Below are positions 24,111 through 48,335 of a stretch of 49,080 nucleotides of DNA, in pieces. This DNA is from Bacteroidales bacterium (GTDB lineage Bacteria; Bacteroidota; Bacteroidia; Bacteroidales; UBA932), in assembly GCA_017631875.1 (NCBI GenBank), contig JAGBSL010000028.1, positions 1-49,080 of the forward strand. Reading direction: 5' to 3'. Each line of letters opens with the position of its first letter. Position 1 is the stretch's first letter. The notes below the pieces were generated by a model. It ran no database searches, was not told the origin of the DNA, and saw only the letters and a program-made list of their open reading frames with translations. A program made the translations under genes and the position numbers.

Positions 24111-24146
24111 TTCTATATGGTTATTAGTTTATTCTATAAAATCCTT

Positions 24147-25630: not shown

Positions 25631-25660
25631 AAATTACTACATAAAGACTACATTGTAATA

Positions 25661-25684: not shown

Positions 25685-25779
25685 AAACAATTCCATCCTA
25701 CAAGTCACTGCAAAAGTGGAATGAAAAGACGGAAAAGTGTTTAAAAAACAGAAAAATGTCGTTTAAAAAAGAGAAATAA

Positions 25780-25812
25780 TTTAAAGAAAAAGAAAAAGTT
25801 AGCGTAAATTTG
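25780..25812 (+). promoter_or_regulatory. Candidate promoter of ychF
   Basis: TAAATTTG (25805-25812) is an exact -7 box. The -33 position has TTTA (25780-25783), 21 bases away. The ATG at 25839 follows after 26 bases. Confidence 0.55.
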
Positions 25813-25838
25813 CGCCCTGATTTAAAAGAAGATAGAAA

Positions 25839-26942
25839 ATGGCACTTAAATGCGGTATAGTAGGACTTCCTAACGTAGGAAAATCAACATTGTTCAACTG
25901 TGTAAGCTCGGGAAAGGCACAGAGCGCAAACTTCCCTTTCTGCACGATCGATCCGAACATCGGTTCGACAAACGTTCCTGATAAGAGACTCGAGGTTCTG
26001 GAAAGCCTCTGCAATCCTAAGAGAGTAGTTCCGGCAACTGTGGAGATCGTAGACATCGCCGGTCTCGTGAAGGGAGCCAGCAAGGGTGAGGGACTCGGAA
26101 ACCAGTTCCTTGCAAACATCAGAGAAACAGACGCAATCCTTCACGTACTCCGTTGCTTCGATGACCCTAACATCATCCATGTAGACGGAAGCGTAGACCC
26201 TGTACGTGACAAGGAAATCATCGACTGCGAGCTCCAGCTCAAGGACCTTGAGACAGTGGAAAACCGCATTGCAAAGGTACAGAAGCAGGCAACTACAGGT
26301 GGAGACAAGAACGCTAAGAAGCTTTATGATCTCCTCTGCAAGTATCGCGATGCTCTCCAGCAGGGCAAATCATGCCGTACCGTAAAGCCGGAGAATGCTG
26401 AAGAAGCACAGATGGCTAAGGAGCTTTACCTCCTTACCAACAAACCTGTGATGTATGTCTGCAACGTAGACGAAGCATCGGCAAAGGATGGAAACCACTA
26501 TGTAGAGCAGGTTCGCGAGGCTGTAAAGGACGAGGATGCTGACATTCTCGTTATCGCAGCCAAGATCGAGTCAGACATCTCAGAGCTCGAGAGCTACGAG
26601 GAGCGCCAGATGTTCCTTGAGGAGATGGGACTCGAAGAGTCAGGAGTCGTAAGACTTATCCAGCATGCATACGCCCTCCTCAACCTCCGTACATACTTCA
26701 CAGTAGGAGTAGAAGAGTGCCGCGCATGGACTATCAACGTGGGTGACAAGGCTCCTCAGGCGGCAGGTGTGATCCACTCAGACTTCGAAAGAGGATTCAT
26801 CCGCGCAGAGGTAATCAGATACGAGGACTTCATCCAGCTCAAGTCAGAGGCAGCATGCCGCGCAGCAGGTAAGCTCGGAATCGAAGGAAAGGAATACGTC
26901 GTTCAGGACGGCGACATCATGCACTTCCTTTTCAACGTATAA
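25839..26942 (+). CDS. ychF: Redox-regulated ATPase YchF (Obg family)
   Basis: 367 residues, the normal size. It is a universally conserved P-loop protein of the Obg group that prefers ATP and associates with ribosomes. Motifs are G1 GLPNVGKST (8-16), the G2/G3 region with VDIAGLVKGASKGEGLGNQF, the unusual specificity loop CNVDE in place of NKxD, and the C-terminal TGS-like domain ending in DGDIMHFLFNV. Its 3' end overlaps by 11 bases with a convergent thioredoxin-like gene. Confidence 0.97.
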   Translation: MALKCGIVGLPNVGKSTLFNCVSSGKAQSANFPFCTIDPNIGSTNVPDKRLEVLESLCNPKRVVPATVEIVDIAGLVKGASKGEGLGNQFLANIRETDAILHVLRCFDDPNIIHVDGSVDPVRDKEIIDCELQLKDLETVENRIAKVQKQATTGGDKNAKKLYDLLCKYRDALQQGKSCRTVKPENAEEAQMAKELYLLTNKPVMYVCNVDEASAKDGNHYVEQVREAVKDEDADILVIAAKIESDISELESYEERQMFLEEMGLEESGVVRLIQHAYALLNLRTYFTVGVEECRAWTINVGDKAPQAAGVIHSDFERGFIRAEVIRYEDFIQLKSEAACRAAGKLGIEGKEYVVQDGDIMHFLFNV

Positions 26943-27435
26943 GCGATTCGATAGAATACATAAGATCATCATAGGTAGGGATGGGATCATCGGTAAAGAT
27001 ATATCTGATGATTCCATCCTTATCGCATATATATACCCTTGGAATACGTGAGGAGGCAAACTTATTATAGACTTTACGGTCCTTTTGGGCAGAATAAGGC
27101 ATATTAAAGGAATGTTCAGTCCAATAAGACTCTATTTCCTCCGAACACTCATCACGGCTTACAAGGGCAAATCTGACCCCTTTTTGAGCATATATGTCAT
27201 ATATCTCCTGGATAACAGGGAGGGTCTGCTGACAATCCGGGCATGTGGTATGGAAAAACATTATAAAGGATACATTTCCAATCAAAGACTGGTCTGAAAC
27301 AGCAGTTCCGTCATTCATCATGACACTGAACTCCGGAATCATATCCCCTACCTTAAGATCAGAAGCTTGAGGATTTTCCTTTATACACCCTATGAATGAG
27401 TAAATGAATGTCAATATTATAACAAAATATTTCAT
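26932..27435 (-). CDS. Thioredoxin/TlpA-like lipoprotein
   Basis: 167 residues from the ATG at 27435. An earlier in-frame start at 27465 would overlap the upstream HAD gene and add a non-signal leader. From MKYFVIILTF the lipobox SFIGC gives Cys17. A redoxin fold follows with Cys65-x-x-Cys68 in HTTCPDC and the cis-Pro loop SRIPRVYICD. It probably sits on a periplasmic face of a membrane and reduces disulfides; the substrate is unknown. Base composition is more AT-rich than ychF. It begins 4 bases after the HAD gene and is probably co-transcribed with it. Confidence 0.8.
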   Translation of the reverse strand: MKYFVIILTFIYSFIGCIKENPQASDLKVGDMIPEFSVMMNDGTAVSDQSLIGNVSFIMFFHTTCPDCQQTLPVIQEIYDIYAQKGVRFALVSRDECSEEIESYWTEHSFNMPYSAQKDRKVYNKFASSRIPRVYICDKDGIIRYIFTDDPIPTYDDLMYSIESLIR

Positions 27436-27439
27436 TCCA

Positions 27440-28177
27440 TCATGGTTTGAAATTCTCAAAAACATGATAAATCTCGCTCCATCTGCTGTTCAACTCGACA
27501 AGCGACTTGAATACGATATCCGCCCCCGACATATACAAGGTTTCATCAGACAAAGGACCGGTATTTACCGCAATAACAAAAAGTCCTGCAGCCTTGGCCG
27601 ATTGTATTCCTAATGGGGCATTTTCCACTACAATAGCCTGATTCACTGACAGATTTCCCTTCTTCAACGCCATCAGATATGGTTCAGGATCCGGTTTGCC
27701 TATACGCACATCATTCCCATTCACAATGGAGTCATCATTGAAGAAACTCCCATATATTTCCTTTATTCTTGCCAGAGAACATATCTGCTTCGAACCGGTG
27801 ACAATCATGCTTCGTATACCATATCCACTTATATTCTCAAGAAAGCCATTGGCTCCTTCCATCACTTTACCTACGGGTAATCCTTCAAAAATCTTCTTCT
27901 TGAAAGCGTAAATAGAACTGATTTCATCTTCGGAAGCATCCCTTCCATACTGCCTGCGTACAGCAAACTGTATTGTGCCCCTGCCTGTCCGTCCTTCATG
28001 CATATACGCATCCTCCTCATAAAAACACACTCCATGTCTGTTCATACTCTCCATCCACGCTGTCGCATGGTTAGGCATAGTGTCGAACAATACTCCATCC
28101 ATGTCGAAAATTACCGTTTTAAGATCAAAGTGACATAGATTATTTTCTATTAGATATTTTTTGAACGAAGTCTTCAT
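27440..28177 (-). CDS. HAD superfamily phosphatase/phosphomutase (beta-phosphoglucomutase-like)
   Basis: 245 residues from ATG 28177; a start at 28219 (259 residues) is possible but would run through the -7 box of the divergent TIR gene. HAD motifs are FDMDGVLFDT (nucleophile and acid Asp two residues apart), VTGSK (motif II), KPDPEPYL (motif III Lys) and VENAPLGIQSAKAAG (motif IV). The cap type is that of subfamily IA, beta-phosphoglucomutase-like. Cytoplasmic; substrate likely a sugar phosphate, but not readable. It is divergent from the TIR/IMPase pair and shares a short regulatory gap with it. Confidence 0.85.
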   Translation of the reverse strand: MKTSFKKYLIENNLCHFDLKTVIFDMDGVLFDTMPNHATAWMESMNRHGVCFYEEDAYMHEGRTGRGTIQFAVRRQYGRDASEDEISSIYAFKKKIFEGLPVGKVMEGANGFLENISGYGIRSMIVTGSKQICSLARIKEIYGSFFNDDSIVNGNDVRIGKPDPEPYLMALKKGNLSVNQAIVVENAPLGIQSAKAAGLFVIAVNTGPLSDETLYMSGADIVFKSLVELNSRWSEIYHVFENFKP

Positions 28178-28205
28178 TTTGCTGTTTTTCCAAGAATCCT
28201 TTTCA

Positions 28206-28213
28206 TATATTTG
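28206..28213 (+). promoter_or_regulatory. -7 promoter box of the TIR/IMPase operon
   Basis: TATATTTG is an exact TAnnTTTG box, 23 bases before the TIR gene ATG. TTTG at 28177-28180 is 25 bases upstream, too far; a TTTT at 28184-28187 has 18-base spacing. Confidence 0.4.
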
Positions 28214-28236
28214 CATCAAATATAAGCTTATCTGGG

Positions 28237-29286
28237 ATGTTCACAAAATTTTACGATGTATTTATCGCCTATCATGGAAGTTACGACAACAACGGTTCTA
28301 TTGATATTGCGGGTGAATTATATGAATATTTAACGCAAAGAAACCTCAAGGTGTTCTTCTTCCCCAGATGCGGAAGAGATATATATAAGGCAAATATCAT
28401 TGACGTGATGAAATCGAAGACATTCATCCTTATATGCAATGAGTATCTCAACACTTTAGAGAACGGAAAAATCAACCCCTCTTTCCATTATGAGCTGTCC
28501 ACTGAGATAGATGCGTTTTACGCACTGACACAGACAGGAAAGGATGCAAGCGTATCGGAATCAAAGATCCTGGTATGCGGAAACTGCAATAAAGGACAGG
28601 AATCCAGACTTCACGAATTGTTTGCCAACAGGACACACAATTTTCTTAATGAAGAAAACAGAGAAGAATCATACCAAAATTTATACGAGTGGGTATGCCA
28701 TCGTCTTAAGAACAAGTACAATACAGCAAGCGCCTGGGCTGCAAAACAGACGACAAATGAGATTACGGAAGTTTTTGCTAAAAGATCTTCTATGAGCCAG
28801 ATGTGCAATCTTCCTGAAATGGTGGCAAACGCCAAAAGCATAAGATGTCTAGGCATTTCAAACACTGAAATGACAGTAAGAATTGACCCTGAAGCCATAA
28901 GGTTTGCGTTGAATAACGGTGCTGACATAGAAATCCTTTTTCTTGACCCTGTATCAGAATACACATCACAAAGAGAAAAGGAAGAAGGCACCAGAGACAA
29001 TAAGATAAAGACAATCACTATTAACAACATCGAAGCGGCCAATGACCTGAAGGACGATCTGCCTGATAACTTTAAAGGTTTCTATAGGCTATACCTATAT
29101 GATGCACTTCCAAGGATGAATCTTATCATCATAGATGATACAATCATATTACAATACTACGCAAACAAGGTAGCGGGTATGTCAAACCCATGCTTTCTCA
29201 TAAAAAGACAAAATGAATCACCGCTTTATGAATTCTGCGTCAAGACATATGAATCAATCAAAAATACCGCAAAAGAAATAATATAA
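28237..29286 (+). CDS. TIR-domain protein with PLD/DUF5919-like C-terminal domain
   Basis: 349 residues, no signal peptide or membrane segment. Residues 5-150 read as a TIR domain: YDVFIAYHGS (strand A and loop), LKVFFFPRCGRD (strand B/BB-loop), SKTFILICNEYL (strand C) and FHYELSTEIDAF with Glu86, the place of the catalytic glutamate in NAD-cleaving TIRs. A linker follows, then a second domain (about 198-325) with SIRCLGISNTE, GADIEILFLDPVSEY, MNLIIIDDTIILQYY, resembling C-terminal domains of the PLD-like/DUF5919 kind as I remember them (uncertain). Bacterial TIR proteins often act in phage defence by cleaving NAD or making signals. The IMPase gene begins 2 bases downstream. Confidence 0.72.
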   Translation: MFTKFYDVFIAYHGSYDNNGSIDIAGELYEYLTQRNLKVFFFPRCGRDIYKANIIDVMKSKTFILICNEYLNTLENGKINPSFHYELSTEIDAFYALTQTGKDASVSESKILVCGNCNKGQESRLHELFANRTHNFLNEENREESYQNLYEWVCHRLKNKYNTASAWAAKQTTNEITEVFAKRSSMSQMCNLPEMVANAKSIRCLGISNTEMTVRIDPEAIRFALNNGADIEILFLDPVSEYTSQREKEEGTRDNKIKTITINNIEAANDLKDDLPDNFKGFYRLYLYDALPRMNLIIIDDTIILQYYANKVAGMSNPCFLIKRQNESPLYEFCVKTYESIKNTAKEII

Positions 29287-29288
29287 CA

Positions 29289-30062
29289 ATGACATACGAA
29301 AAGGAACTTGCATACATAAGAGACAAAGTAAGAAAGGCATTCAGTCTGTATGCCGGATTGTCCGAAGAAGATATTCATCAGAAATCCACCTTTGATATTG
29401 TTACGGAAACTGATCTGAATATTGAAAAATACCTCATTGGAGAAATTCTTTCCTGTTTCCCGGCTGACCATATCCTGAGCGAGGAATATAATTCTGAAAA
29501 ACTCATAACAGACAGAACATGGATCATCGACCCTATTGATGGAACATGTAATTTTAAACAGGAAATACCTCTTTTCGGTATCCAATGTGCACTAGCAGAG
29601 AACGGAAGAGTGGTAATGTCATACATTTACCTTCCTATATATGACGAGGAATATTATGCCGTTATAGACAAAGGAGCATGGATGAATGACAATAAGATAT
29701 CTGTGAAGAACAATCCCCTTAACCACTCTATCGTAAGTTTCGGCGATTATCCACATGACTCGTCTGTCTATTCAGCTGTCCAAAATAAAGCCATAGGGTA
29801 TATAATGGACAAGATAGCCAAAATCAGAATGTTTGGAGCCGCATGCATTGACTTTGCATGTGTAGCCTCAGGAAAGACAAACGGATGCGTTCTTATAACA
29901 CGAAACTCATGGGATATCCTGCCGGGAATGTTCCTTTGTAAAGAAGCTGGAGCTGTAATTACAAACTTGAAAGGCGAAGAATATAATTTCTACGATGACG
30001 GTATAATAATAGCGGCAGACAAGGAACTACACTCAGTTCTCACAACAGCGATGAAATTATAA
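29289..30062 (+). CDS. Inositol monophosphatase family protein
   Basis: 257 residues. Motifs of the Li+-sensitive Mg2+ phosphatase family are complete: VTETD (38-42), Glu65-Glu66 in LSEEY, DPIDGT (81-86) and WDILPG with Asp209. Members remove phosphate from inositol phosphate, 3'-phosphoadenosine phosphate, fructose bisphosphate or NADP. The substrate cannot be chosen from these motifs. It is tightly joined to the TIR gene (2-base gap) and shares its AT-richer composition, so the two probably work together. A strong terminator follows at once. Confidence 0.88.
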   Translation: MTYEKELAYIRDKVRKAFSLYAGLSEEDIHQKSTFDIVTETDLNIEKYLIGEILSCFPADHILSEEYNSEKLITDRTWIIDPIDGTCNFKQEIPLFGIQCALAENGRVVMSYIYLPIYDEEYYAVIDKGAWMNDNKISVKNNPLNHSIVSFGDYPHDSSVYSAVQNKAIGYIMDKIAKIRMFGAACIDFACVASGKTNGCVLITRNSWDILPGMFLCKEAGAVITNLKGEEYNFYDDGIIIAADKELHSVLTTAMKL

Positions 30063-30096
30063 AAAAAGAAGGCGACATGTGAGTCGCCTTCTTTTT
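30063..30096. terminator. Bidirectional terminator between the IMPase-family gene and ppiD
   Basis: Perfect 14-bp stem: AAAAAGAAGGCGAC (30063-30076) with GTCGCCTTCTTTTT (30083-30096), loop ATGTGA. It has an A-run on one side and a T-run on the other, between convergent genes. Confidence 0.9.
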
Positions 30097-30111
30097 ACTA
30101 TTTAATTTCTA

Positions 30112-32076
30112 TTAATAGAATCTTGCAGTGTTGTCCTTAACCTCAGCCTGATCCATCATTACAGGGAGGAGCATCTGCATAGCTGAATAGCTCATCTGCT
30201 GCTCACGGAGAGCTGCGTCATCCTCAGTGAAGAAAGCACCTTCTGAACGGTCTGTAACAACGTATACATATACTCCTGTGTTACCCTGGAGAGGTCCGTT
30301 GAGAGCACCTACCTCAGCAACTGAAGCTGCACCGATGAACTTATTGTCAAGACCTGTAGAAGTGAATGATGCGAATGTAACATCCTCCTTAGTGCTTACT
30401 GTAGTACCAAGAGCCTCAGCAACTGCAGCGAGGTCTGTAAGACCGTTGATCTTCTCAGCTACCTCTGCAGCCTTCTTTGCGGCAGCCTTCTCCTGATAAA
30501 GCACTGGCTTGATACGTGCTGCAACCTCCTCAACTGGAGTGAAGCCTTCCTTGTGGATACCCTTAAGGGCAGCAACAACATAGTACTTGTTATCAATAGA
30601 GATGATGCCTGAAACCTGGCCAACCTTAGCCTCGAAAGCCCATCTTGTAACCTCCTTAGTGTGCTCTACAGAACCAAGTCTGCTTGCGCTCTCAGGCATT
30701 CTGTTGTAAGGATGTGCGTAAAGACCATCCTCCTCTACTGCCTTCCTGAAGCCCTCAAGCTTTCCACCTGCCTTAGAAGCTACTGAGTTAGCCTTAGCAT
30801 AGCAAGCGCTTCTTGTAGCGTCGCTTGGCTGAGCTGTTTTCTCAAGGATAGCCACTCTCTTCTTAGCAACCGGATCCTGAGTAGCAACGACCTCGAAAAG
30901 CATTCCGTTGATTGTAACCTGCTGACCTACTGCTGTAGTCATGAGATCCTCGAAGCCGTCCATCTGAGAGATCCACTGTGGCTCAGCAGCTGCAAGAGCC
31001 TCTGCAGCTCCCTCAACACCTGCCTGAGTGTACTTCACCTGAACCTGCTCCGGAACCTGTGCTGACTCCATAACCTTTACAGCATAGAATGAGTTGCCGT
31101 TCTGGAAGATAGGAGAAACATCACCAACTCTAGCTGAATTTACGAATGCCTCAACCTCAGATGAAAGAGTGTTGAGCTCACCAGCCTTATACCATCTATT
31201 CTCAAGCTGACGCTCTGACTTCGAAAGAAGGAAAGTCCTCATGTTCTCAGCAGCTACGAACTCATCGTATACAGCAGCGATAGCGTTGTTAGCCGCTGTA
31301 ACATCGTCAGCTGAAGGAACGATATCGATTACGATGTACTCGATGTCTCTGCTTGCGATCTGCTTGTAGTTATCCTTGTGCGCATTATAGTAATCCTTGA
31401 TTTCCTTATCAGAAACAACGATAGTGCTGTCCTGAGCGAAACCGAAAGGAACCACAACGAACTCCACATCGAATGTAGTGTTGTTACCCTTAACCTGCTC
31501 AGCAACTGCAAGAGCATTGTTGAATGAGCTCTTAGCGAAGAGTGACTGATACTTAGTATAGAACTGGTCTGTGTAAACAGTCTCGAGAAGGTTGTCCCAG
31601 AAAAGTCTCATGCGACCTGTCTCGTCAGCCTCTACCTGAGCCTCGATTTCCACGAGAAGCTCCTTGTTGAGCTGACCCTGGAACATCTGCATAAGGAAAC
31701 CTGAGAGCATCTCGCCTGAGAGAAGCTGGTACATCTCCTCCTCACCTACATTGAAACCTGCTGCCTTTGCAGAAGGAATAAAGAGATAATCGTTAATGAA
31801 CTGCTGCCAAGCCTGCTGTCTTACCATTGCAAGAGCCTCGTCACCCTGTACAGGATTACCGTTCATCTCGCTGATAGCTGTGATCTTCTCTATCTCAGCC
31901 TGGAAATCAGTATAAGAAATAGACTTACCGTCAATTTCACCTACATCATACTTTGAAGATGTCGATGAAAGTGACTGAATAGTGCCGAAATCGACAATAA
32001 ACGACAAAAGCGCTACTGCGATAAGCACTGAAATCAGAATTCCGAATTTAACTCGGATTGTTTCAAGAACTGCCAT
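30112..32076 (-). CDS. ppiD: PpiD/SurA-like peptidylprolyl isomerase (membrane-anchored chaperone)
   Basis: 654 residues. It has a single N-terminal membrane anchor (about 12-30, GILISVLIAVALLSFIVDFG), then a SurA_N-type helical chaperone region (about 45-230) and parvulin-like segments (about 230-350 and 355-560; NKYYVVAALKG and the HP(Y)NRMPESASRLG region recall rotamase domains). It faces the periplasm and helps outer membrane proteins fold. It ends the mfd-coaX-OMP-TPR-lptC run after a 78-base gap. Catalytic activity of the parvulin domain cannot be judged. Confidence 0.85.
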   Translation of the reverse strand: MAVLETIRVKFGILISVLIAVALLSFIVDFGTIQSLSSTSSKYDVGEIDGKSISYTDFQAEIEKITAISEMNGNPVQGDEALAMVRQQAWQQFINDYLFIPSAKAAGFNVGEEEMYQLLSGEMLSGFLMQMFQGQLNKELLVEIEAQVEADETGRMRLFWDNLLETVYTDQFYTKYQSLFAKSSFNNALAVAEQVKGNNTTFDVEFVVVPFGFAQDSTIVVSDKEIKDYYNAHKDNYKQIASRDIEYIVIDIVPSADDVTAANNAIAAVYDEFVAAENMRTFLLSKSERQLENRWYKAGELNTLSSEVEAFVNSARVGDVSPIFQNGNSFYAVKVMESAQVPEQVQVKYTQAGVEGAAEALAAAEPQWISQMDGFEDLMTTAVGQQVTINGMLFEVVATQDPVAKKRVAILEKTAQPSDATRSACYAKANSVASKAGGKLEGFRKAVEEDGLYAHPYNRMPESASRLGSVEHTKEVTRWAFEAKVGQVSGIISIDNKYYVVAALKGIHKEGFTPVEEVAARIKPVLYQEKAAAKKAAEVAEKINGLTDLAAVAEALGTTVSTKEDVTFASFTSTGLDNKFIGAASVAEVGALNGPLQGNTGVYVYVVTDRSEGAFFTEDDAALREQQMSYSAMQMLLPVMMDQAEVKDNTARFY

Positions 32077-32154
32077 TGTATTAATATTTTTAGAATTTTA
32101 TTCCTTTTTGGACATTAAGGGTGCGAATATAGTAATTTTTTGATTCAAATACTA

Positions 32155-32778
32155 TTATTTAAGGAGTGGGCCAATGAAATTGACTGTATCTATAACCACT
32201 TCTGTGGTATCCTGTACAACAATTCCATAGCTGTTGAACGGATTGAATATAGTGTGGTCTCTCGCCCGCTGGTCCGACTCCATTCCATATCCCTGCATGA
32301 ATCCGTCCGGAGAATACAACTTGACATAGCAGTGGGTGTATATCCTCTCGTTCTTCTGGTCCCAGTAAAGCGTATCGGTCTCTATAGTCTCCTGCTTGAT
32401 CAGATTCTTGACCACGACATTACCGAATGCCTCCCAAGTCTCCCTTCCGTCCTCATATTTCACATGACGGGCATTGTCGGCTACTATTTCAGTTTCCAAC
32501 AATCCTTCATCGGTATATCCATATACGGCAAAACCCTCAGGGAAAAGCTCATACGAGAGAGTATCCCTCTCATACTTCTCCATCAGATCAGCAGATGCGC
32601 GCATCTGAATTTTACCGTTTTCTGACTGCACGACAAACATATCCCTGACCGTCTGTACAGGGGTTTCATTCAATTTCAGTGCAGCTGCTTCACCCAATTT
32701 ACCCTTACATGAATAAACGACGAAAGCAACCGCCAAAGCGGTTGCTGACATCTTCAATATATGAAGTACTCTGTTCAA
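32155..32778 (-). CDS. lptC: LPS export periplasmic protein LptC
   Basis: 207 residues. N-terminal hydrophobic segment with a lipobox-like VVYSC (Cys24), as in many Bacteroidetes LptC proteins. The rest is the LptC/OstA beta-jellyroll, with repeated short strands (VYGYTDEGLLETEIVADNAR; AFGNVVVKN; TDTLYWDQKNERIYT). It takes lipopolysaccharide from the inner-membrane LptBFG transporter and passes it to LptA. It lies 4 bases after the TPR gene in an envelope operon. Confidence 0.9.
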   Translation of the reverse strand: MNRVLHILKMSATALAVAFVVYSCKGKLGEAAALKLNETPVQTVRDMFVVQSENGKIQMRASADLMEKYERDTLSYELFPEGFAVYGYTDEGLLETEIVADNARHVKYEDGRETWEAFGNVVVKNLIKQETIETDTLYWDQKNERIYTHCYVKLYSPDGFMQGYGMESDQRARDHTIFNPFNSYGIVVQDTTEVVIDTVNFIGPLLK

Positions 32779-32782
32779 TCTG

Positions 32783-34111
32783 TTACTTCTGTGTTCTGAC
32801 TGTAGTCACAGCCCTCATACCACCGCATGAAACTGTATATGACTGACCGTCTACAACATCATACATGAACGCCTCAGAAGCAGCAGGATAGTAGTTTGCA
32901 TACTGTCTGATGTAGTTGTTTGCATCCTCTGCGAGAGAAGGATCGGCGTTCTTTGCCTTTGTCATGAAATCAACTGCAACCCAGTAAGGAGCTCTTCTCT
33001 CGATCTCGTTACCGCCACATACTGTAGATCCCCAGATTGTACCCATGAGCATGTAGCACTTACCAGCGATTGCAGAATCAAGTTCTACTGCCTTCTGTGC
33101 AGCCTCGTAAGCCTTAGCACTCTTTCCGTTCTTGAAGCTATATGCTGCAAGCTCGAAGTAATAACCAGCATCTGCAACATTGTCTGAATCTACAGAGTTG
33201 ATTGCCTCTTCCATATACTTGACAGCGTTATCGAAGTCACCTCTGTTAGAGTAGAGCTTGTAGAGATTATATGCCGCAGTGTATGTAGGCTCGAGGTTGT
33301 ATACTGTCTGTACTGCATTGATGAACAGGTCGTTATCCATACATCCCTCTGTCATGCTCATCATCTTTACGATATTCTTTGAAAGAGCAAGATCCTGTGG
33401 GTTAGCCTCATATCTTGGAGTGAAGAGGGCGAGAAGGTTGTCACAGCTTGCTACCTGGCTTGTGATGAAGATGCTCTCGAAGTCAGTCTTTGTCTTCTCG
33501 ATGCTTCTTGCCTCCACGTCATTCTTAGGAGTGATTTCACCAAGATACTGGATACCTGTCTCATAGATCTCGATGACAGACTCAGGATCAAGCATACCGC
33601 TCTTATATAGCTCTACAGCAGTGCTGATCTGGAACAGGAAGATGTTAGGTCTTGTCTGTGCCTTAGTCTGGTTTACAACATTTGTAAGACCCTCAAGAAG
33701 CTTAGCTGGCTCGTCTTTGAGATAATTATACATATCAAGAGCCATGTTATTGAGCGAGCTTACTCTATATTTAGGCCAGAACTCCACTCTCTGATTGTAA
33801 ACTGTCATAAGAGAATCGACGAGCTGCTGCTTGTATACAGGGTTGTTCTGATTCTTCTGGATAAGGTTACGAAGAAGAGTTGTACCGTCTGAAAGCATAG
33901 AATACCTTGATGTAGGAGGACAGTACTTGTATGCCTGTCTCCAGTTAGGAAGGGCTGCATCATAGTTCTTCTGCTTGTAGTACTCAGTGTAGTACGAGAG
34001 ATACTTGATACATTCTGTGCTGTCAGGACCATATTTACCCTGAGCAGATACCTTGCTGCTGCCGAGAAGAGCCATAGCAGCTACGGAAATTAACAGTACG
34101 AATTTTTTCAT
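32783..34111 (-). CDS. Exported tetratricopeptide-repeat protein
   Basis: 442 residues with a signal peptide (ending KVSAQG, about residue 24). TPR-like helix pairs are visible: YKQKNYDAALPNWRQAYKYC near 45-64 and several later ones (GDFDNAVKYMEEAIN; NGKSAKAYEAAQKAVELD). A Cys-containing C-terminus ends in YTVSCGGMRAVTTV. The role is unknown; by position between an outer membrane barrel and lptC, it may be an envelope scaffold. This gene order is common in Bacteroidales. Confidence 0.8.
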   Translation of the reverse strand: MKKFVLLISVAAMALLGSSKVSAQGKYGPDSTECIKYLSYYTEYYKQKNYDAALPNWRQAYKYCPPTSRYSMLSDGTTLLRNLIQKNQNNPVYKQQLVDSLMTVYNQRVEFWPKYRVSSLNNMALDMYNYLKDEPAKLLEGLTNVVNQTKAQTRPNIFLFQISTAVELYKSGMLDPESVIEIYETGIQYLGEITPKNDVEARSIEKTKTDFESIFITSQVASCDNLLALFTPRYEANPQDLALSKNIVKMMSMTEGCMDNDLFINAVQTVYNLEPTYTAAYNLYKLYSNRGDFDNAVKYMEEAINSVDSDNVADAGYYFELAAYSFKNGKSAKAYEAAQKAVELDSAIAGKCYMLMGTIWGSTVCGGNEIERRAPYWVAVDFMTKAKNADPSLAEDANNYIRQYANYYPAASEAFMYDVVDGQSYTVSCGGMRAVTTVRTQK

Positions 34112-34136
34112 GGTGTAATTATGTGTTGTTTATCTT

Positions 34137-35453
34137 TTACTTATACTGAACCTTCTGGAACCATATATCATGGATGTTGAAACCTACCACAAACGTTGCA
34201 TATCGTTCCCTGATCATGTTGTTTCTTGTGCTTGCCCTCTGTCCGAGATCCACTCCAAGAGTGAGTCCGTTATAAAGTCTGAAGACAGGAAGAGTGACTC
34301 CAAGAGTAATACCCATCGAATTGATATTGTTGCCGTTAAGCTTATAATACGACTGATCGTAATAGACTCCTGCCCTATATGCACACCTTCTCAGATAATA
34401 CCTAATGTCATTTCGGTTAGGCACGATCTCGAATCCTGCACGGAAGGACTGTGAAACAGCAGATGAGAAAGTCTCCATATCACTCTTTACCGAGAATCCG
34501 CTTGCGGAATCAAATCCTGAATTTCTCCAGTCTGACCTGAGGTAGTTGAACTCAGCGCTCCACTTCTCTCCACCCTTGAAGGAAATTCCTACTCCAAGTT
34601 CATCTGCAAACTTCAAACCCGACTTACGCAGATCCAACGACTCATTCTTCAGTGTGTCAGTCACGCTGTCCTGATTAGCGTATCTGTAGTTGAGAACAGT
34701 TCCCTTCAAAGAGGTGCTCAACCTGTAGGTGGCTCCTATGATCATCGAAACATCACCTCCGAGCTTCTGCTCATACTGCAGACCGAACTTTCCTGTAGTT
34801 CCTCTCACCATAAGGTCGCTTCCGCTGTTCACTGACCTGTATGAAGAGTTGGAATAGTCCATATTTGTAACCTTATCTATGTTACCGAAGTAATAGATCG
34901 CCTCAGCACCTAAGGAAAGACGTTTCCAGAAAGTGACTCCAGCACCGGCAAACACCTGATATACGCTACCTGTACCATATGAGTCGTATGATATGTTTCC
35001 TGTCTGTCCGATGATGTTCGGATCTGTCTCGATAGAAGAGAAGTCATATCCCACATCACTGAAAGGAGTTATACCGACCATAAAGGCAGAAGAGCGGTAG
35101 ATAGGGAAGCTCATCACGAAATTGTAGATGTTAAACGTGTTATGAGCGGATCTGAGGTCTCCCTGTCTGTAAACCTTATTGCTCTGCTGCAGACCGAAAT
35201 CGGCCATGAAAGAGAGAGAGTCTCGCGCTGTTACTGCCGCAGGATTTAGATAATTGATGAATCTCCTGTTCCTTGTAGCCAGACCCACGCCTCCCATGCT
35301 CTTATTGAATGCCGTGCCTTCCTGCGATATGTCACCTATTCCATAAATGGAATAAGGCGAATACGCACCATAAGTGCCATCCTGCGCAGACACGCAGACA
35401 CTTATGATGAGAAACACTGACAGCAAAAATATTCGTTCAATCCTTCTAATCAT
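34137..35453 (-). CDS. Outer membrane beta-barrel protein, FadL-like
   Basis: 438 residues with a signal peptide (ending CVSAQD). After it, YSPYSIYGIGDI and LNPAAVTARDSL (an NPA motif as in FadL/OMPP1 barrels), then alternating beta-strand patterns to the end. It is probably an outer membrane channel for hydrophobic or small molecules; substrate unknown. It overlaps the 3' end of coaX by 8 bases. Confidence 0.75.
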   Translation of the reverse strand: MIRRIERIFLLSVFLIISVCVSAQDGTYGAYSPYSIYGIGDISQEGTAFNKSMGGVGLATRNRRFINYLNPAAVTARDSLSFMADFGLQQSNKVYRQGDLRSAHNTFNIYNFVMSFPIYRSSAFMVGITPFSDVGYDFSSIETDPNIIGQTGNISYDSYGTGSVYQVFAGAGVTFWKRLSLGAEAIYYFGNIDKVTNMDYSNSSYRSVNSGSDLMVRGTTGKFGLQYEQKLGGDVSMIIGATYRLSTSLKGTVLNYRYANQDSVTDTLKNESLDLRKSGLKFADELGVGISFKGGEKWSAEFNYLRSDWRNSGFDSASGFSVKSDMETFSSAVSQSFRAGFEIVPNRNDIRYYLRRCAYRAGVYYDQSYYKLNGNNINSMGITLGVTLPVFRLYNGLTLGVDLGQRASTRNNMIRERYATFVVGFNIHDIWFQKVQYK

Positions 35454-36153
35454 ATTGTAAAGCTATTAAAGCCAACCCCATAAGCACAAGGTTACAAACT
35501 ACAAAGATGGAGTTTTTCCTCCTTTTTGCAAAATAAATCGCGTCTCCACCGGTAAAAACACAGATATTTTCGGGTTTGCGCGCGACATATCCGTCAATTT
35601 CGAACATTATGCCCGAAATGACACCGGAATTAATGGACGATACAATATCCGTACCAGCCTCAGGAACATCCTCCGGAGCATCAAGCAGAGGAAGTGACTT
35701 GGAATACCTGTAAAGAGATCTGAACCTGGTATGGCATCCAGGCGAAATGCAACCACCTTCAAAGTTTCCGTCCTTATCAAGGAAGTCTATCGTAAAGGTT
35801 GTTCCGAAATCGAATATAGTGCATGGACGGCTCTTGAAAAGATAGCGTGCAGCTATAACGGAAGCGGCCCGGTCAGGGGTAAGGTACGTAGGTATCGCAT
35901 ACTTCTGCTCAAGCATGTCGCTGTCGAGTATGATCATCCTTCCGCACTCCTTCTTTAGCCTTTCCACATTCTGCTCTGAAAAATACCTCACGCTGCTGAG
36001 GACTATCTTTTCAGGTTTTTCCTTTGCGATAAGCGAAAGGATGAAGTCAAACATCCTTTCACCCTGGTATCTGAAAGTCTTTCCAAGGGTCATACCGTCT
36101 GCCCATGACGCCTTCAAGGCAGTATTTCCTATGTCTATCAACAGATTAGCCAT
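35446..36153 (-). CDS. coaX: Type III pantothenate kinase
   Basis: 235 residues. Catalyses ATP-dependent phosphorylation of pantothenate, the first step to coenzyme A. ASKHA-fold motifs are LLIDIGNT (4-11, phosphate 1), LTPDRAAS near 92 (the type III G/PxDR motif) and IFDFGTTFTIDF near 114 (phosphate 2; DxGTT rather than the more common DxGTA). The start lies 2 bases after mfd. The end overlaps the outer membrane protein gene. Confidence 0.95.
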   Translation of the reverse strand: MANLLIDIGNTALKASWADGMTLGKTFRYQGERMFDFILSLIAKEKPEKIVLSSVRYFSEQNVERLKKECGRMIILDSDMLEQKYAIPTYLTPDRAASVIAARYLFKSRPCTIFDFGTTFTIDFLDKDGNFEGGCISPGCHTRFRSLYRYSKSLPLLDAPEDVPEAGTDIVSSINSGVISGIMFEIDGYVARKPENICVFTGGDAIYFAKRRKNSIFVVCNLVLMGLALIALQYD

Positions 36154-36155: not shown

Positions 36156-39100
36156 TTACAGCATCTTTAATATCTTATAAGCCTTTTCAAGGCTGTCTAC
36201 ATTCCTTACCACTATCCTGAGCCTTCCGTCAGGCTGCTTCACCTCGAACACATTAGGATGTGCGCTGACATTCTCCAGTACCTTGGAGAATTTATTGGAC
36301 CTGTAATACTGAGACAGAGGATTAGATATGAAGAAGGCGATAAGGACGCCATTCTTTACTATTATCTTCTCGAAACCGAGACTCTTTCCCAACTGCCTTA
36401 TCCTTACTATATCAAACAGCCTCTCAAGCTCCACCGGCATGGTTCCGAAACGATCCGTTAGCCTTGACTTCATGTCCAAGAGTCCCTTCTCGGAAGAAAT
36501 GGAATCCAGTTCCTTGTATATCCTAATTTTCTCTGCCGTCATGTCTATATAACTGTCCGGAATGAGAGCCAGCTGATCCGTCTCGATAGTACAGTCCGAG
36601 ATGAAGTTCTCGGTAGTGGTCTTGGTAGCGATGCCGGTCTCCATACCGAGTTCCTCCATTGCTTCCGCAAGGATCTTCTGATACGTTTCAAAGCCCATAT
36701 CGGTGATGAATCCGCTCTGCTCGGCTCCCAGAAGGTTTCCGGCACCACGGATATCCAAGTCCTGCATCGCGATATTGAATCCACTACCTAGGTCGGAGAA
36801 CGACTCGATCGCCTTGAGACGGCGTCGGGCATCGTCCGAAATCGACACCAGAGGAGGAACTATCAGATAGCAGAATGCGCGGCGGTTGGAACGGCCGACG
36901 CGTCCGCGAAGCTGGTGCAGGTCGCTAAGACCTATGTTCTGCGCCTGGTTGATGATTATAGTGTTGGCATTAGGGATATCGAGACCACTCTCGATGATCG
37001 TAGTACAGAGAAGCATGTCATAATCCCCTGCCATGAACTCAAGGATCTTGTTTTCAAGAACCTTAGCTTCCATCTGGCCATGAGCCACACATATCTTCAT
37101 ATCCGGCACTATCCTATGCAGAATATCATGGACGGACTGAAGTTCCTCCACTCTATTATGAACGAAGAATATCTGTCCTCCCCTGTTGAGCTCATATCTG
37201 ATGATCTTCCTGATCTCATCATCGTCAAAGAGCATGATTTCAGTCTGCACCGGAATCCTGTTAGGCGGAGGAGTCGAGATTATCGACAGGTCTCGCGCAC
37301 CCAGGAGCGAGAACTGGAGGGTTCTCGGAATCGGAGTAGCCGTCAAGGTAAGAGTGTCCACCGAAGCCTTGAGCTGACGCAGCTTCTCCTTCGCGCTCAC
37401 ACCGAACTTCTGCTCCTCATCGATGATCAGCAGACCGAGATCTTTGAATTCGAATCCCTTTCCTATAAGCTTATGGGTACCTATCACGATATCTAGAGTA
37501 CCCGCCTTGAGCCGTTTCTGGATATCCGCAATCTCTTTCGCTGTCCTCAGACGACTGACATAATCCACGTTACAAGGCAGATCCTTCAAACGGCTCTGGA
37601 ATGTCTTGAAATGCTGCAGGGCAAGGATTGTGGTAGGCACAAGGACGGCCACCTGCTTACTGTCTGCAACAGCCTTGAACGCAGCACGGACTGCAACCTC
37701 TGTCTTTCCGAATCCAACATCTCCGCAGACAAGTCTGTCCATAGGACAATCGTCCTCCATGTCCCTCTTGACAGCCTGCACAGCCTTCTCCTGATCCGGG
37801 GTATCCTCATACATGAACGAAGACTCGAGTTCCTGCTGGAGATATGAATCCGGAGAAAAAGCAAAACCTTTGGAGCTCTTACGCCTCGCATACAACTGTA
37901 TGAGGTCCTTGGCGATATCCTTCACTTTGGACTTTGTGCTTGCCTTGAGGTTCTGCCATACCTTCGATCCTAGCTTATGTATCTTTGGAGGCTCGGAATC
38001 CTTTGATTTATAGCGTGATATCTTATGGAGCGAATGCACTGATACAAAGACTACATCGTTGTCTTTGTATGTAAGCTTCACGACCTCATGCATCCTTCCC
38101 TTGTCATCCCTCATGCGCACAAGACCTCCGAAGATACCTACTCCATAGTCGATATGCACTATATAATCCCCTATCGAAAACGACGTAAGATCATTGATGG
38201 TCAGCTGCTCGCTCTTCTCCACAGTACGCCTGATTGTCACCCTGTGGAACCTGTCGAAGATCTCATGGTCACTGTAGCAGCAGACCTTGTTCTCATGGTC
38301 TATGAATCCGTTATGGATATTGCACTGGGGAACGAACTCAGGCATTATGCCGGAATTCTGGGACAAAATAGACTTGAGTCTGTCCAGCTGAGACTGCTTT
38401 TCACCATAGATGCGCACCCTATAGCCCTCTTCAAGACGCTTCCTTATGTCTTCTGTAAGAAGTTCGAAGTTCTTGTTGAATGTAGGCTGTGGAGCTATGC
38501 TGAACCTTATAGATGGCTCATTCTGTCTTGAAAGAGGCACCTCCAGATAAATCTTCCTGAAACGCTCGAGGAGCGGAAAGAACGCCCTCTCCTTATACAT
38601 ATCCGACGAATCCAGCCACAGAAGCGTATCCGGAGGCAGGATATCAGCAATCTGGACACAAGTCTCCCCTTCCTCATCTGACGGCGCCAGATCCGGATAG
38701 ATTTCCGCAGAGACAACCTTCTCTTTAGAAAGCTGAGTGTTGCAGTCAAATATGTTTATAGAATCAATCTCATCACCGAAAAACGAGATACGGAACGGAT
38801 CGTTATAAGAATATGAGAATATGTCTACGATAGCTCCTCTTATGGCGAACTGTCCAGGTTCTGCCACAAAATCGACCCTCTCGAATCCGCTGTTGAAAAG
38901 AGACTCTACAATGCTCTCATGGCTTATTTCATCACCTACATTGAGCTTTAGCAGCGAATCCTTGATGCTTGAGGGAGCCGGTATCCCTTCCTCAAGAGCG
39001 GAAGGATAAGTAACGATGATCAGCTTACCCTCCTTATTATTTATGATGCTGCCCACGGCAGCGGTCCTCTGGACACTGAGAGAAGCCTTATAATTACTCT

Positions 39101-39344
39101 TTTCAAGGCGCCTTCCAGAATCAGGAAGAAAGAATACGCAGTCTCCCTCTATAAGATTATAAAGGTCCACCGCACAATACTCGGCAGATTCCCTGTCCGG
39201 CATCACTATCATCTGAATACCGTCATGATCGAGACCGGCCACGACGAACCAACGGGCCGAAAGAAAAAGCCCGCTGCAGAAGGTTTCCGACTTGCCGGAA
39301 ATTTCCGTCGCAAGTGCGTTTATGGATTTTGTACTTATTAACAT
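36156..39344 (-). CDS. mfd: Transcription-repair coupling factor Mfd
   Basis: 1062 residues. Removes RNA polymerase stalled at DNA damage and recruits UvrA. The order is a UvrB-homology region (to about 330), then the RNA-polymerase-interacting (CarD-like) domain around GDYIVHIDYGVGIFGG, a superfamily 2 translocase with VCGDVGFGKTEVA (Walker A), IIDEEQKFGV (DEEQ box), QLRGRVGRSNRRAFCYL (motif VI), and the C-terminal TRCF domain. It is a little shorter than the E. coli protein. It heads the envelope operon to its left, and its start flanks the proposed oriC. Confidence 0.97.
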   Translation of the reverse strand: MLISTKSINALATEISGKSETFCSGLFLSARWFVVAGLDHDGIQMIVMPDRESAEYCAVDLYNLIEGDCVFFLPDSGRRLEKSNYKASLSVQRTAAVGSIINNKEGKLIIVTYPSALEEGIPAPSSIKDSLLKLNVGDEISHESIVESLFNSGFERVDFVAEPGQFAIRGAIVDIFSYSYNDPFRISFFGDEIDSINIFDCNTQLSKEKVVSAEIYPDLAPSDEEGETCVQIADILPPDTLLWLDSSDMYKERAFFPLLERFRKIYLEVPLSRQNEPSIRFSIAPQPTFNKNFELLTEDIRKRLEEGYRVRIYGEKQSQLDRLKSILSQNSGIMPEFVPQCNIHNGFIDHENKVCCYSDHEIFDRFHRVTIRRTVEKSEQLTINDLTSFSIGDYIVHIDYGVGIFGGLVRMRDDKGRMHEVVKLTYKDNDVVFVSVHSLHKISRYKSKDSEPPKIHKLGSKVWQNLKASTKSKVKDIAKDLIQLYARRKSSKGFAFSPDSYLQQELESSFMYEDTPDQEKAVQAVKRDMEDDCPMDRLVCGDVGFGKTEVAVRAAFKAVADSKQVAVLVPTTILALQHFKTFQSRLKDLPCNVDYVSRLRTAKEIADIQKRLKAGTLDIVIGTHKLIGKGFEFKDLGLLIIDEEQKFGVSAKEKLRQLKASVDTLTLTATPIPRTLQFSLLGARDLSIISTPPPNRIPVQTEIMLFDDDEIRKIIRYELNRGGQIFFVHNRVEELQSVHDILHRIVPDMKICVAHGQMEAKVLENKILEFMAGDYDMLLCTTIIESGLDIPNANTIIINQAQNIGLSDLHQLRGRVGRSNRRAFCYLIVPPLVSISDDARRRLKAIESFSDLGSGFNIAMQDLDIRGAGNLLGAEQSGFITDMGFETYQKILAEAMEELGMETGIATKTTTENFISDCTIETDQLALIPDSYIDMTAEKIRIYKELDSISSEKGLLDMKSRLTDRFGTMPVELERLFDIVRIRQLGKSLGFEKIIVKNGVLIAFFISNPLSQYYRSNKFSKVLENVSAHPNVFEVKQPDGRLRIVVRNVDSLEKAYKILKML

Positions 39345-39624
39345 TTGCCCTTATTTTCTGTTGATAACCTGTTGGTAACCCTGTTGAAATCTAATGAAAA
39401 CTAAATTCTCCAAATAATTATTTTCCGTATATTACGGTACCTGAAGTCAAATTCAAAATAATTTAGCAAGATTTTTCCAAGAACTTCACAATAGGCTTAT
39501 CAACAGTTATACACATTGTAAGTATTTGATTGTCAGCGCACATTTTCGGTTATCAACATATTAACAGCAAAATAATCAAAAACATACTTTAAATAAATAT
39601 ATCTATATTTGTATATATTTTTTG
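39345..39624. other. Candidate chromosomal replication origin (oriC)
   Basis: A 280-base AT-rich gap between divergent mfd and ruvB. DnaA-box-like 9-mers (consensus TTATnCACA): TTATCAACA inverted at 39359-39367, TTATCAACA at 39497-39505, TTATACACA at 39507-39515, TTATCAACA at 39550-39558, plus weaker TTACCAACA inverted at 39370-39378. TTATACACA is a classical box; the other three share one deviation (A for C at position 6). From 39570 to 39625 the sequence is almost only A and T, suitable for unwinding. Two parS-like sites lie 8-9 kb away and gene strands diverge from here. dnaA is not in the window, which is common in Bacteroidetes. Confidence 0.65.
39604..39611 (+). promoter_or_regulatory. 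-7 promoter box of ruvB
   Basis: TATATTTG matches TAnnTTTG, 13 bases before the ATG at 39625. No TTTG is seen at the proper distance. Confidence 0.35.
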
Positions 39625-40659
39625 ATGATTATGGCAACTGACTTCGACCCGCACAACGCCAACGAGGGCAAAGATAAAGATTTCGACGGAATAATCCGTC
39701 CGCAGGACCTTGAAGATTTCACCGGTCAGGACAAGATCGTGGCCAACCTGAAGATCTTCGTTGCGGCCGCAAAAATGAGGGGTGAATCCCTTGACCATGT
39801 GCTCTTTCACGGTCCTCCGGGACTGGGTAAGACTACCCTTGCTCACATCATAGCCAATGAGCTCGGTGTGAACATGAAGGTTACTTCCGGTCCGATCCTG
39901 GACAAGCCAGGCGATCTTGCCGGTCTCCTTACATCACTTGAGGAGGGAGATGTGCTCTTCATTGATGAAATACACCGCCTCTCCCCTGTCGTCGAGGAAT
40001 ATCTCTACTCGGCTATGGAGGATTTCGTTATCGATATCATGATAGACAAGGGACCTGGTGCACGCTCTGTCAGGATTTCACTCAATCCGTTTACACTTGT
40101 CGGCGCGACAACCAGAAGCGGACTCCTTACTTCTCCTCTGAGGGCGCGTTTCGGTATCACCTGCGCGATGGAATACTATGATACCGCAACTCTGGTCAAC
40201 ATCGTAAAAAGAAGTGCTAATATATTAAAGGTAGGAATCGAGCAGGACGCCGCCTATGAGATTGCCCTCAGAAGCCGAGGAACGCCGCGTATAGCGAACT
40301 CTCTGCTGCGAAGGGTACGTGACTTCGCACAGGTCATGGGAAGCGGCTCCATCGACCTTAAAATCGCCCGATATGCGCTTGATGCCCTTAACATAGACAA
40401 GAGGGGACTTGACGCCATAGATAATAAGATCCTGAAGACTATCATTACCAAGTTCAAGGGTGGTCCGGTAGGTGCGAATACGATTGCAACAGCGGTAGGA
40501 GAGGATCAAGGAACGCTTGAGGAGGTTTACGAGCCGTTCCTTATCAAGGAGGGCTTCATCATGAGGACTCCGCGAGGTAGGGAAGCGACGGATCTCGCCT
40601 ACAAGCATCTAGGCCTTGAAAAAGGCCATATAAATATGGATGATCCGGAGTTATTTTAA
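39625..40659 (+). CDS. ruvB: Holliday junction branch migration helicase RuvB
   Basis: 344 residues from ATG 39625; an in-frame ATG at 39631 is equally usable and a TTG at 39622 is unlikely. Hexameric AAA+ motor that drives branch migration with RuvA, which is also encoded in this window. Walker A GPPGLGKT (about 63-70), Walker [10 protein letters not shown], sensor 1 LVGATTRSG, arginine finger region SPLRARFG and the C-terminal winged helix with [10 protein letters not shown] are all present. It is divergent from mfd across the proposed origin. Confidence 0.97.
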
Positions 40660-45737: not shown

Positions 45738-45768
45738 TAAAGTTAGAAATTATATTTTTTATTTCAAA
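45738..45768 (-). promoter_or_regulatory. Promoter of tonB
   Basis: Minus-strand TTTG (45768 to 45765), 19 bases, TAACTTTA (45745 to 45738), one base off TAnnTTTG. It lies 36 bases upstream of the ATG. Its -33 box overlaps that of ybeY on the other strand. Confidence 0.6.
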
Positions 45769-45808: not shown

Positions 45809-46228
45809 ATGATATCATATTATTTCGAGGACATTGATTTTATTTTCAAAGGTAAGACACTGAATAACCGTTGGCTACGCCTGGTTGCAGAGAGCGAGAT
45901 ACGCAGAATAGGGGATATATCGATCATATTCTGTTCCGATAATTATATATTGGATGTAAATCAGCAGTACCTTCAACACGATTACTTTACCGATATCATC
46001 ACTTTCGATTATTGTGAAGGCGATAAGCTTTCAGGTGATCTCTTTATCAGTGTTGATACAGTAAGGGAGAATGCGATCGAATATGGAACCGAGTTCAAAG
46101 ACGAATTGAATAGAGTAATTGTACATGGTATCCTTCATCTGATCGGTTACGATGATCATGAAGAAGATGATATCAAGGTAATGAGAAGTAAGGAGAATTA
46201 TTACCTTTCATTGAGAGAGCTTGTGTAG
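45809..46228 (+). CDS. ybeY: rRNA maturation endoribonuclease YbeY
   Basis: 139 residues, usual size. A zinc RNase that matures 16S rRNA 3' ends and takes part in ribosome quality control. The metal motif is [12 protein letters not shown] (His106, His110, His117), the family pattern H-G-x-L-H-L-x-[14 protein letters not shown] is the conserved strand preceding it. mnmG starts one base after its stop codon, so the two are co-transcribed. Confidence 0.95.
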
Positions 46229-46229
46229 T

Positions 46230-48335
46230 ATGCAGAGAAACTATGATATAATAGTAGTCGGTGGAGGACACGCAGGATGTGAGGCAGCCATGGCTGCTTC
46301 GCGAATGGGCTCGTCTGTTCTTCTTATCACGATGGACATGAATAAGTTCGGACAGATGTCCTGCAATCCAGCAATCGGCGGAATTGCCAAGGGACAGATT
46401 GTTCGTGAGATAGATGCGCTCGGAGGTTACACCGGAATCGTAACTGATGCTTCGACTCTCCAGTTCCGCATGCTTAACAGGTCAAAAGGTCCGGCAATGT
46501 GGAGTCCCCGTGCTCAATGCGATAAAATCCAGTTTTCTCTATATTGGAGAAAAATCCTTGAAAGTGCCTGTAAATTAGATATTTACCAAGATACAGTCGT
46601 TAATTTCCTCTTTGAGAATTCAAAAATTACGGGCGTCCGTACGACTACAGGGGCAATTTTCAATTCTCAGGCGGTTATTTTGACTGCCGGAACCTTCCTT
46701 GACGGCAAGATGTTCATTGGTCGCAACATGTTCGAGGGAGGAAGGATCGGAGAACTTCCGTCGCATGGTCTGACTCAACAGCTGGTTGAGATGGGAGTTG
46801 CAACAGCTCGTATGAAGACTGGTACTCCTCCGAGAATCGATATTTCATCTGTCGATACTTCTTCGCTCATTCATCAGTTCGGTGACGAGCGGCCAGACAA
46901 GTTTTCTTATCTTCCTTTCCTTTCGACAGCTCAAAACGGAACTCCTCAGATGCCGTGCTTCGTAGTCCATACAAACGAAAAGGTTCATGAAACTTTAAGA
47001 AGCGGTTTTGCGGATTCTCCTCTCTTCTCAGGAATGATTACAGGAATAGGTCCGAGGTACTGTCCGAGCATTGAAGATAAGCTCAGGACATTTGCCGGAA
47101 AGACGGAACATCAGCTATTCCTTGAGCCGGAGGGTAGGGGAACGAACGAGTACTATCTTCAGGGATTTTCGTCGTCACTTCCGCTCGATGTGCAGATGGA
47201 AGCACTCCATCAGATCAAGGGACTTGAGAATGCAAAGGTTTTTCGTCCAGCGTATGCTGTTGAGTATGATTACTTTGACCCAACTCAACTTAAAGCGACA
47301 CTTGAGTTAAAGAATATTGAAAATCTGTTCTTTGCTGGTCAGATTAATGGTACAACCGGTTATGAAGAGGCTGCTGCTCAGGGACTTATGGCTGGTATTA
47401 ATGCTCATTTGAAGGTGACTGGACAGGATCCGTTTATTCTGAAGCGCGATCAGGCGTATATAGGTGTACTTATTGATGATCTTATTACCAAGGGAGTAGA
47501 CGAACCTTATCGTATGTTTACATCAAGAGCGGAGTATCGTATCCTTCTGAGACAGGATAATGCTGATTTGCGACTTACTCCTTTATCATATAAATATGGT
47601 CTTGCAGATGCATACAGGTATGATTATACAATGCGCAAGTACGATTCTGTCGAGCGCTTCAATCAGTTCTTTGCTGATGCAGCTGTTAAACCAGAGCATG
47701 TGAATTCATATTTAACAGGAGTTTCTTCTGCTGAAATCGGTTCACGTAAGCGTATAGCAGAATTGATATCTCGTCCGCAGACAGATATTCATTCTTTATT
47801 TGATTTAGTTCCACGTGGAACATTTATCAAGTTTAATATAGATATTGAGAGCGAATTTGCTTCGCCTTTGAAAGGTTTATTAGCTGCTGAATCTAAGTAC
47901 TCAGACCTTATACAGTATAATAATTATAAGGATCTGAATGTACATTTTTCTCCGAAATATGCATGTAATCTGTCTTATAAGGATGCAGCTTATGTCCTTC
48001 AATTTAATTCTGAATATCCTGTATCGAAGCTTGATCAGGATTCACTGGATAAGGTCATAGAGGAAAATTACAAGAGGGAGATACTTGACTCGTCAGAGAT
48101 TTCCATCAAGTATAAGGGTTATATCCAGCGTGAGCAGCAGATGGCTGATAAGATCATGAGGCTGGAGAATCTCATAATTCCTGATGATTTTGATTTTGAT
48201 AGGGTAGAGAGTCTCTCGATAGAGTGTCGTCAGAAGTTGAAGAAATATGCTCCTAAGACTATCGCCCAGGCATCCAGAATATCAGGAGTTTCTCCTGCAG
48301 ATATATCAGTATTGTTGGTCTATTTTGGCAGATAA
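46230..48335 (+). CDS. mnmG: tRNA uridine-5-carboxymethylaminomethyl enzyme MnmG (GidA), with extended C-terminal region
   Basis: 701 residues from ATG 46230; a TTG at 46221 lies inside ybeY and is unlikely. With MnmE it modifies U34 of certain tRNAs. The FAD motif [12 protein letters not shown] (9-20) and [26 protein letters not shown] and [16 protein letters not shown] segments are conserved. The C-terminal MnmE-binding region is recognisable from KYKGYIQRE to [10 protein letters not shown]. The family is usually about 620-630 residues; the extra ~70 lie between about 528 and 605. The second half of the gene is visibly more AT-rich. A parS-like palindrome lies in the coding sequence at residues 527-531 (VPRGT). 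Confidence 0.93.
47807..47822. other. parS-like ParB binding site inside mnmG
   Basis: AGTTCCACGTGGAACA contains the perfect 14-base palindrome GTTCCACGTGGAAC (47808-47821), matching known parS sites (TGTTnCACGTGnAACA) at all but the first base. It lies at the edge of the extra segment of MnmG. Confidence 0.65.

Follow-up and report, generated by a model that had tools for sequence, protein, structure and literature searches.

A probable chromosomal replication origin between the divergent mfd and ruvB genes of a Bacteroidales lineage

The window analyzed here, a stretch of 49,080 nucleotides from a Bacteroidales bacterium, contains a 286 bp gap (39345..39630, no strand assigned) between two divergent genes, and the question is whether the chromosome of this lineage begins its replication there. 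A sequence-only reading had proposed the gap as a probable oriC, and its naming of both neighbors held, since each scored above its NCBIfam cut-off. The gene on the minus strand (36156..39344) is mfd, encoding the transcription-repair coupling factor (TIGR00580, 947.6 bits versus a cut-off of 800), and that on the plus strand (39631..40659) is ruvB, encoding the Holliday junction helicase (NF000868, 505.7 bits versus 282). The list of open reading frames begins ruvB at a TTG at 39622; we chose 39631 because a 342-aa RuvB query starting there aligned from residue 1 in many relatives. The proposed switch of gene strand at the gap was seen as a trend, with 19 of the 27 genes to the left on the minus strand and five of the eight to the right on the plus strand, although these counts from our own gene list differ from the earlier 21 of 29 and six of nine, and the genes are too few to prove anything. 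A search of 39000-40000 for structured RNA gave no Rfam match at the gathering threshold. Elsewhere in the window, the G+C content falls from about 50% to 38-47% across 24001-36000, as if this region had a different history.

The gap carries a series of DnaA-box-like elements, and the 9-mers read earlier were all found at their positions. At the mfd end there is a tandem series on the minus strand with an 11-bp step. Its first member is the DnaA box GGTTATCAACA (39359..39369), which contains TTATCAACA at 39359 and appears as a conserved GTTgAtAAcct in the alignment of relatives; the second and third, supported by pattern search and alignment, are the degenerate boxes TTACCAACA (39370..39380) and ATTTCAACA (39382..39390). 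A weak box, TTATTAACA, overlaps the start of mfd (39335..39343, plus strand). The remaining boxes all lie on the plus strand. A second TTATCAACA occupies the middle of the gap (39497..39505), where many close relatives read TTTTCAACA, and is followed by TTATACACA (39507..39515), which is not conserved among relatives. Toward ruvB, the core box TTATCAACA (39550..39558) adjoins the proposed unwinding region and is overlapped, with an 8-bp step, by a second core box, ATATTAACA (39558..39566), for which the family consensus is ATATCAACA.

These boxes are concentrated in the gap to an unusual degree. All three copies of TTATCAACA in the 49,080 bases fall within the 286 bp, and none of 5000 dinucleotide shuffles of the gap contained two or more copies (mean 0.013). 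The box TTATCCACA occurs in the window as single sites at 14651 and 29747. When seven box variants were counted in six long stretches (the window and contigs of five relatives, G006, G166, G171, G018, and G012), the densest 300 bp was the mfd-ruvB gap in every one, which is the denser-than-elsewhere cluster of DnaA boxes looked for in an oriC. A genome-wide count gave a different picture: the genomes of 10 relatives each carry 10-31 copies of TTATCAACA, compared with 13-28 for a reversed control. Thus, the expected clustering at the gap was borne out while enrichment across the genome was not, and because the box does not outnumber its reversed control over the genome, it is clustering and not copy number that counts.

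To compare the gap among related genomes, genome contigs were searched with RuvB and the best 80 loci were used, mostly from Bacteroidales metagenome assemblies, many of them from ruminants and several assigned to Candidatus Cryptobacteroides. Divergent mfd stands beside ruvB in 78 of these best 80 loci, with a gap of 215-355 bp; the two exceptions are a contig ending 20 bp upstream of ruvB (L028) and a locus with mfd 3.3 kb off (L077). At least one exact TTATCAACA is present in 65 of the 78 gaps and none in the other 13. Alignment of the gaps (78 distinct sequences, including the window) showed a shared layout: the tandem series of box-like elements with its 11-bp step next to mfd, a conserved core next to ruvB, and between the two a middle box, for which many close relatives read TTWTCAACA. 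In a wider sample of the family, mfd was beside ruvB in 17 of 35 other fetched loci and was not seen in 18, where 1.4-1.9 kb beside ruvB had been fetched; the core box pair was nonetheless kept upstream of ruvB in some of the loci without visible mfd, at 17 of 17 bases in L219 and 16 of 17 in L229. Hence, the position is conserved among the closest relatives and in about half of the other family members sampled. At the level of the order, mfd and ruvB lay side by side in two of 119 sampled genomes, namely G006 and G028. Of the 119, 104 yielded both proteins, and contig breaks could hide further cases. The pattern TTWTCAACAWWTYNACA, considered as a wider Bacteroidales signature, matched 35 of the 119 order genomes versus 15 for its reversed control, and the search missed G028 although that genome has the mfd-ruvB locus. 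One genome yielded two ruvB matches of equal score with equally spaced TTATCAACA pairs upstream (G004:C5:262166-263191 and G004:C13:1669-2694), probably reflecting assembly redundancy.

The conserved core has a fixed order: the box pair TTATCAACA-TATCAACA, 4 bp, triplets with a conserved A, and the A/T stretch. Its statistics were taken from 52 non-redundant sequences (less than 85% identity over 45 bases), the underlying score filter having been passed by 77 of 78. In the window, the spacer between the core box pair and the triplets is at 39567..39570 on the plus strand (alignment positions 18-21, with G at 0.42 and then C at 0.58 in the first two). It is followed on the same strand by five trio-like triplets (39571..39585) with the conserved A at 39572, 39575, 39578, 39581, and 39584; the corresponding core positions 23, 26, 29, 32, and 35 hold A at frequencies of 0.96, 0.90, 0.92, 0.87, and 0.79. 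The contrast in conservation with period 3 was equalled by 18 of 5000 column permutations, so the signal is strong, not beyond doubt.

Next to the triplets lies the A/T stretch (39586..39625, no strand assigned), the proposed unwinding region. Bases 39567-39625 are 86% A/T, a composition matched in the window only by 59-base segments starting at 39558-39575 and at 45743-45744, so that an A/T-rich region does stand beside the boxes as looked for in an oriC; the earlier description of it as almost pure A/T was slightly too strong. The stretch also contains the octamer TATATTTG (39604..39611, plus strand), conserved at 0.91-1.00 per base in the 78 aligned gaps and also present ahead of rpsL in relatives. 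As judged also from its resemblance to TAnnTTTG, the Bacteroidota promoter consensus, TATATTTG is the probable -7 element of the ruvB promoter. The A/T stretch therefore probably includes promoter sequence, and unwinding, though still proposed for it, would not be its sole role.

GC skew was then considered over longer distances. Within the window, the cumulative minimum is at 40138, 0.5 kb to the right of the gap, and since the third-codon skew of single genes there showed no clean switch, the origin could not have been decided from the window by itself. Chromosome-size contigs were available for two family members, G018 (2,657,245 bases) and G012 (2,229,011 bases). In G018, where 237 kb around ruvB were joined across the contig ends, the cumulative G-C minimum was at 16396 and so within the gap, which spans about 16.19-16.6 kb. 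In G012, with 290 kb around ruvB, it was at 671968, no more than 10 bp from where the gap, spanning about 671975-672406, meets mfd. The whole chromosomes of these two were covered by coarse samples of 20 kb each, which placed the minimum at 31 kb in G018 and at 676 kb in G012. The maxima of these sampled curves, at ~1.85 Mb and ~2.12 Mb, give arms of unequal length, from which nothing is drawn because the 20-kb samples lie far apart. One contig each was read for three further relatives. The minimum in G171 (220 of 232 kb read) was at 74085, again inside the gap (about 73848-74139), and G006 (257,776 bases) gave a clean V whose lowest point, at 141652, missed the gap by 5.6 kb. No clear V was seen in G166 (172 kb), where the gap is at about 42.1 kb and the minimum, at 115687, falls 73 kb away from it. 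Thus, it is in relatives that the skew minimum lies inside the gap (G018 and G171) or at its edge (G012), and together with the box cluster and the conserved gap and core, this supports the proposed oriC.

The pooled loci agreed with the single contigs. C-rich left flanks were seen at 63 of 73 loci and G-rich right flanks at 53 of 58, and in pooled 1-kb bins the G-C value went from -38.5 to +29.9 across the gap, with a sharp switch there. Where 9 kb were available to the left and to the right of the gap, 32 of 41 loci rose to the right; the nine that did not are all more distant (L048, L068, L071, L072, L073, L075, L078, L079, and L080). In a set of more distant loci (L072, L073, L075, L078-L080, and G166:C1), the gap and the boxes are kept and the GC skew is flat or reversed. 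Because coding-strand bias tends to put a skew minimum at divergent gaps, the exact local coincidence is worth less than it appears. The weight is carried by the long-range V, as coding-strand bias makes no V over 200 kb.

A related element was observed upstream of rpsL in relatives. This 45-bp element, TTATCAACA-N27-TGTTGATAA, precedes the rpsL start by 74-75 bp and is just upstream of the promoter-like TATATTTG at all 17 sites read (18 were found; L284-L300, three of these sites being also covered by L101-L103). When a spacing of 20-34 bases was allowed in the search, the pattern occurred in 17 of 33 close genomes and its reversed control had no matches. The element may tie transcription of the str operon to DnaA.

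The strongest of the other explanations is that the boxes are sites at which DnaA or another regulator controls the divergent mfd and ruvB promoters, the origin lying elsewhere. The near-invariant TATATTTG begins 50-64 bp downstream of the first base of the core box, DnaA-box pairs occur at the rpsL promoter in this lineage as well, and mfd and ruvB are both repair genes for which co-regulation is possible. The skew switch over long range, at the gap in G018, G012, and G171 and near it in G006, counts against this explanation because promoter control does not cause such a switch. Besides, the run of triplets and the box pair exceed what a promoter needs, and the core pair persists upstream of ruvB in some of the loci where mfd was not seen. 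We therefore regard promoter control without an origin as improbable.

It is less probable still that the origin is close by and outside the gap, for example, beside mnmG (gidA) or dnaA. mnmG is an origin neighbor in other bacterial phyla, and here (46221-48335) a distance of 6.6 kb separates it from the gap, while two weak TTATTTACA sites closely follow its end (48343 and 48382); the skew minimum of the window, at 40138, is likewise not exactly in the gap. Against this, the window holds no TTATCAACA outside the gap, box density is highest in the gap itself, and the skew minimum is inside the gap or at its edge in three relatives. As an origin neighbor, mnmG was rejected, with neither TTATCAACA nor TTATNCACA and only the two weak sites beside it. 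The dnaA gene was rejected as well. It is distant from the gap, at 76,214 in G012 (about 0.6 Mb away) and at 1,631,981 in G018 (1.0-1.6 Mb away, depending on contig circularity), and it has no box cluster: at most one box was found at each of 20 family dnaA loci, with flanks of up to 1.5 kb, and at each of nine loci searched with a looser pattern (L236-L243 and L083).

That the gap is a reservoir of boxes titrating DnaA is hardly credible, for although clustered boxes alone cannot separate a reservoir from an origin, the skew switches at the gap and an ordered box pair, spacer, and triplets stand beside the A/T stretch. Taken together, we consider the gap at 39345-39630 to be very probably the chromosomal oriC of this Bacteroidales lineage, with a probability of roughly 0.93 as judged from sequence comparison.

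An origin of this kind has precedents. The passages available on Prevotella intermedia describe an oriC with multiple DnaA boxes and a clear GC-skew transition and with dnaA not near, and the expectation that Bacteroidetes origins are often away from dnaA is likewise in print there (PMC4755523). The proposed origin resembles that of P. intermedia in having a box cluster at a skew transition with dnaA distant. It is flanked by mfd and ruvB, whereas those same passages name no flanking genes. No description of the mfd-ruvB gap as an origin was found in the literature searched, which comprised the main texts of openly available papers.

In the E. coli oriC, 9-bp DnaA boxes are clustered and the ACA end of the proximal box points toward the A/T-rich unwinding region. 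The gap shares this arrangement, with clustered 9-bp boxes and the proximal ACA end facing the A/T stretch. It differs from E. coli in the box itself, TTATCCACA there, and in the location, which is between gidA and mioC (PMC10225481); neither applies here.

The closest likeness is to the basal unwinding system (BUS). As described in the published account, this consists of a box pair, a distance of 10-13 bp to the first trio as the reported peak, and a central A (PMC8287927). The core has the same co-oriented box pair with the upstream box closer to consensus (compared with excerpts of PMC8287927, PMC10721633, PMC10201434, and PMC8235120). Its distance from the end of the upstream box to the first triplet, 12 bp, falls within the reported peak, and it likewise has a short spacer and a triplet run with a conserved A followed by A/T-rich DNA (PMC8287927). 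When triplets on either strand were allowed, all 52 sequences had, on the box strand, a run of three or more central-A triplets no farther than 16 bp from a box, a pattern that arises easily in A-rich DNA, so that conservation is the better evidence.

The strand is where the core departs from the known module. The boxes of B. subtilis point in the same direction as those here. In B. subtilis, the trios are read on the bottom strand, the top strand being CTACTATTACTT... (PMC10201434, with the same convention in PMC8235120), whereas the conserved A of the core is on the strand carrying 5'-TTATCAACA-3'. Triplets of the form 3'-NAN-5' opposite the box strand made a run of three or more in only 16 of the 52 sequences, and the window has two. 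A classical DnaA-trio on that strand was thus rejected as a conserved feature.

The DnaA proteins differ as well. The recognition helix reads HATV in all 28 proteins from relatives, within the pattern GG[KR][DN]HATV, and HTTV in the B. subtilis chain (PDB). The first Thr of HTTV is one of the base-reading residues, T435 in E. coli (PMC7561715). HATV would agree with the changed box, which has A for C at position 6; this fits and does not prove the point. In addition, Asn187 of B. subtilis contacts the trio adenine (PMC10721633), whereas the aligned residue is Thr in 22 of the 28 proteins (as in the L238 alignment). Combining these differences, we tentatively suggest, as a doubtful possibility, that the DnaA of this family opens its origin through a strand-flipped trio-like element with A on the box strand, together with the change of T435 to A (box position 6 from C to A) and of Asn187 to Thr.

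How such an origin may work is inferred from what the comparison shows: which elements are present, how they are conserved and spaced, and where the skew switches in relatives. DnaA, through the helix GG[KR][DN]HATV, would bind TTATCAACA-type boxes in the tandem series next to mfd (11-bp step), in the middle of the gap, and at the core pair (39550-39566), whose members follow each other with an 8-bp step and have their 3' ends directed toward the A/T stretch. Starting at this pair, DnaA would spread across the 4-bp spacer onto the triplets with the fixed A (39571-39585); the A/T stretch would open and the helicase would be loaded there. Two forks would then depart, one through mfd and the other through ruvB.

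Bacteroidetes origins far from dnaA have already been reported (PMC4755523); an oriC between mfd and ruvB is possibly new, as is the variant of the unwinding element. If true, the strand-flipped element would be a distinct version of a conserved unwinding module, and the core offers a way to see how much variation the DnaA-box/trio unwinding code allows. The proposed origin would place the start of replication in Cryptobacteroides-type Bacteroidales, uncultured gut bacteria whose sequences in this comparison came mostly from fragmented metagenome assemblies. An origin fixed between mfd and ruvB would allow growth rates to be estimated from metagenome coverage and assemblies to be rotated and checked, and the gap becomes a candidate when a shuttle vector needs a replicon.
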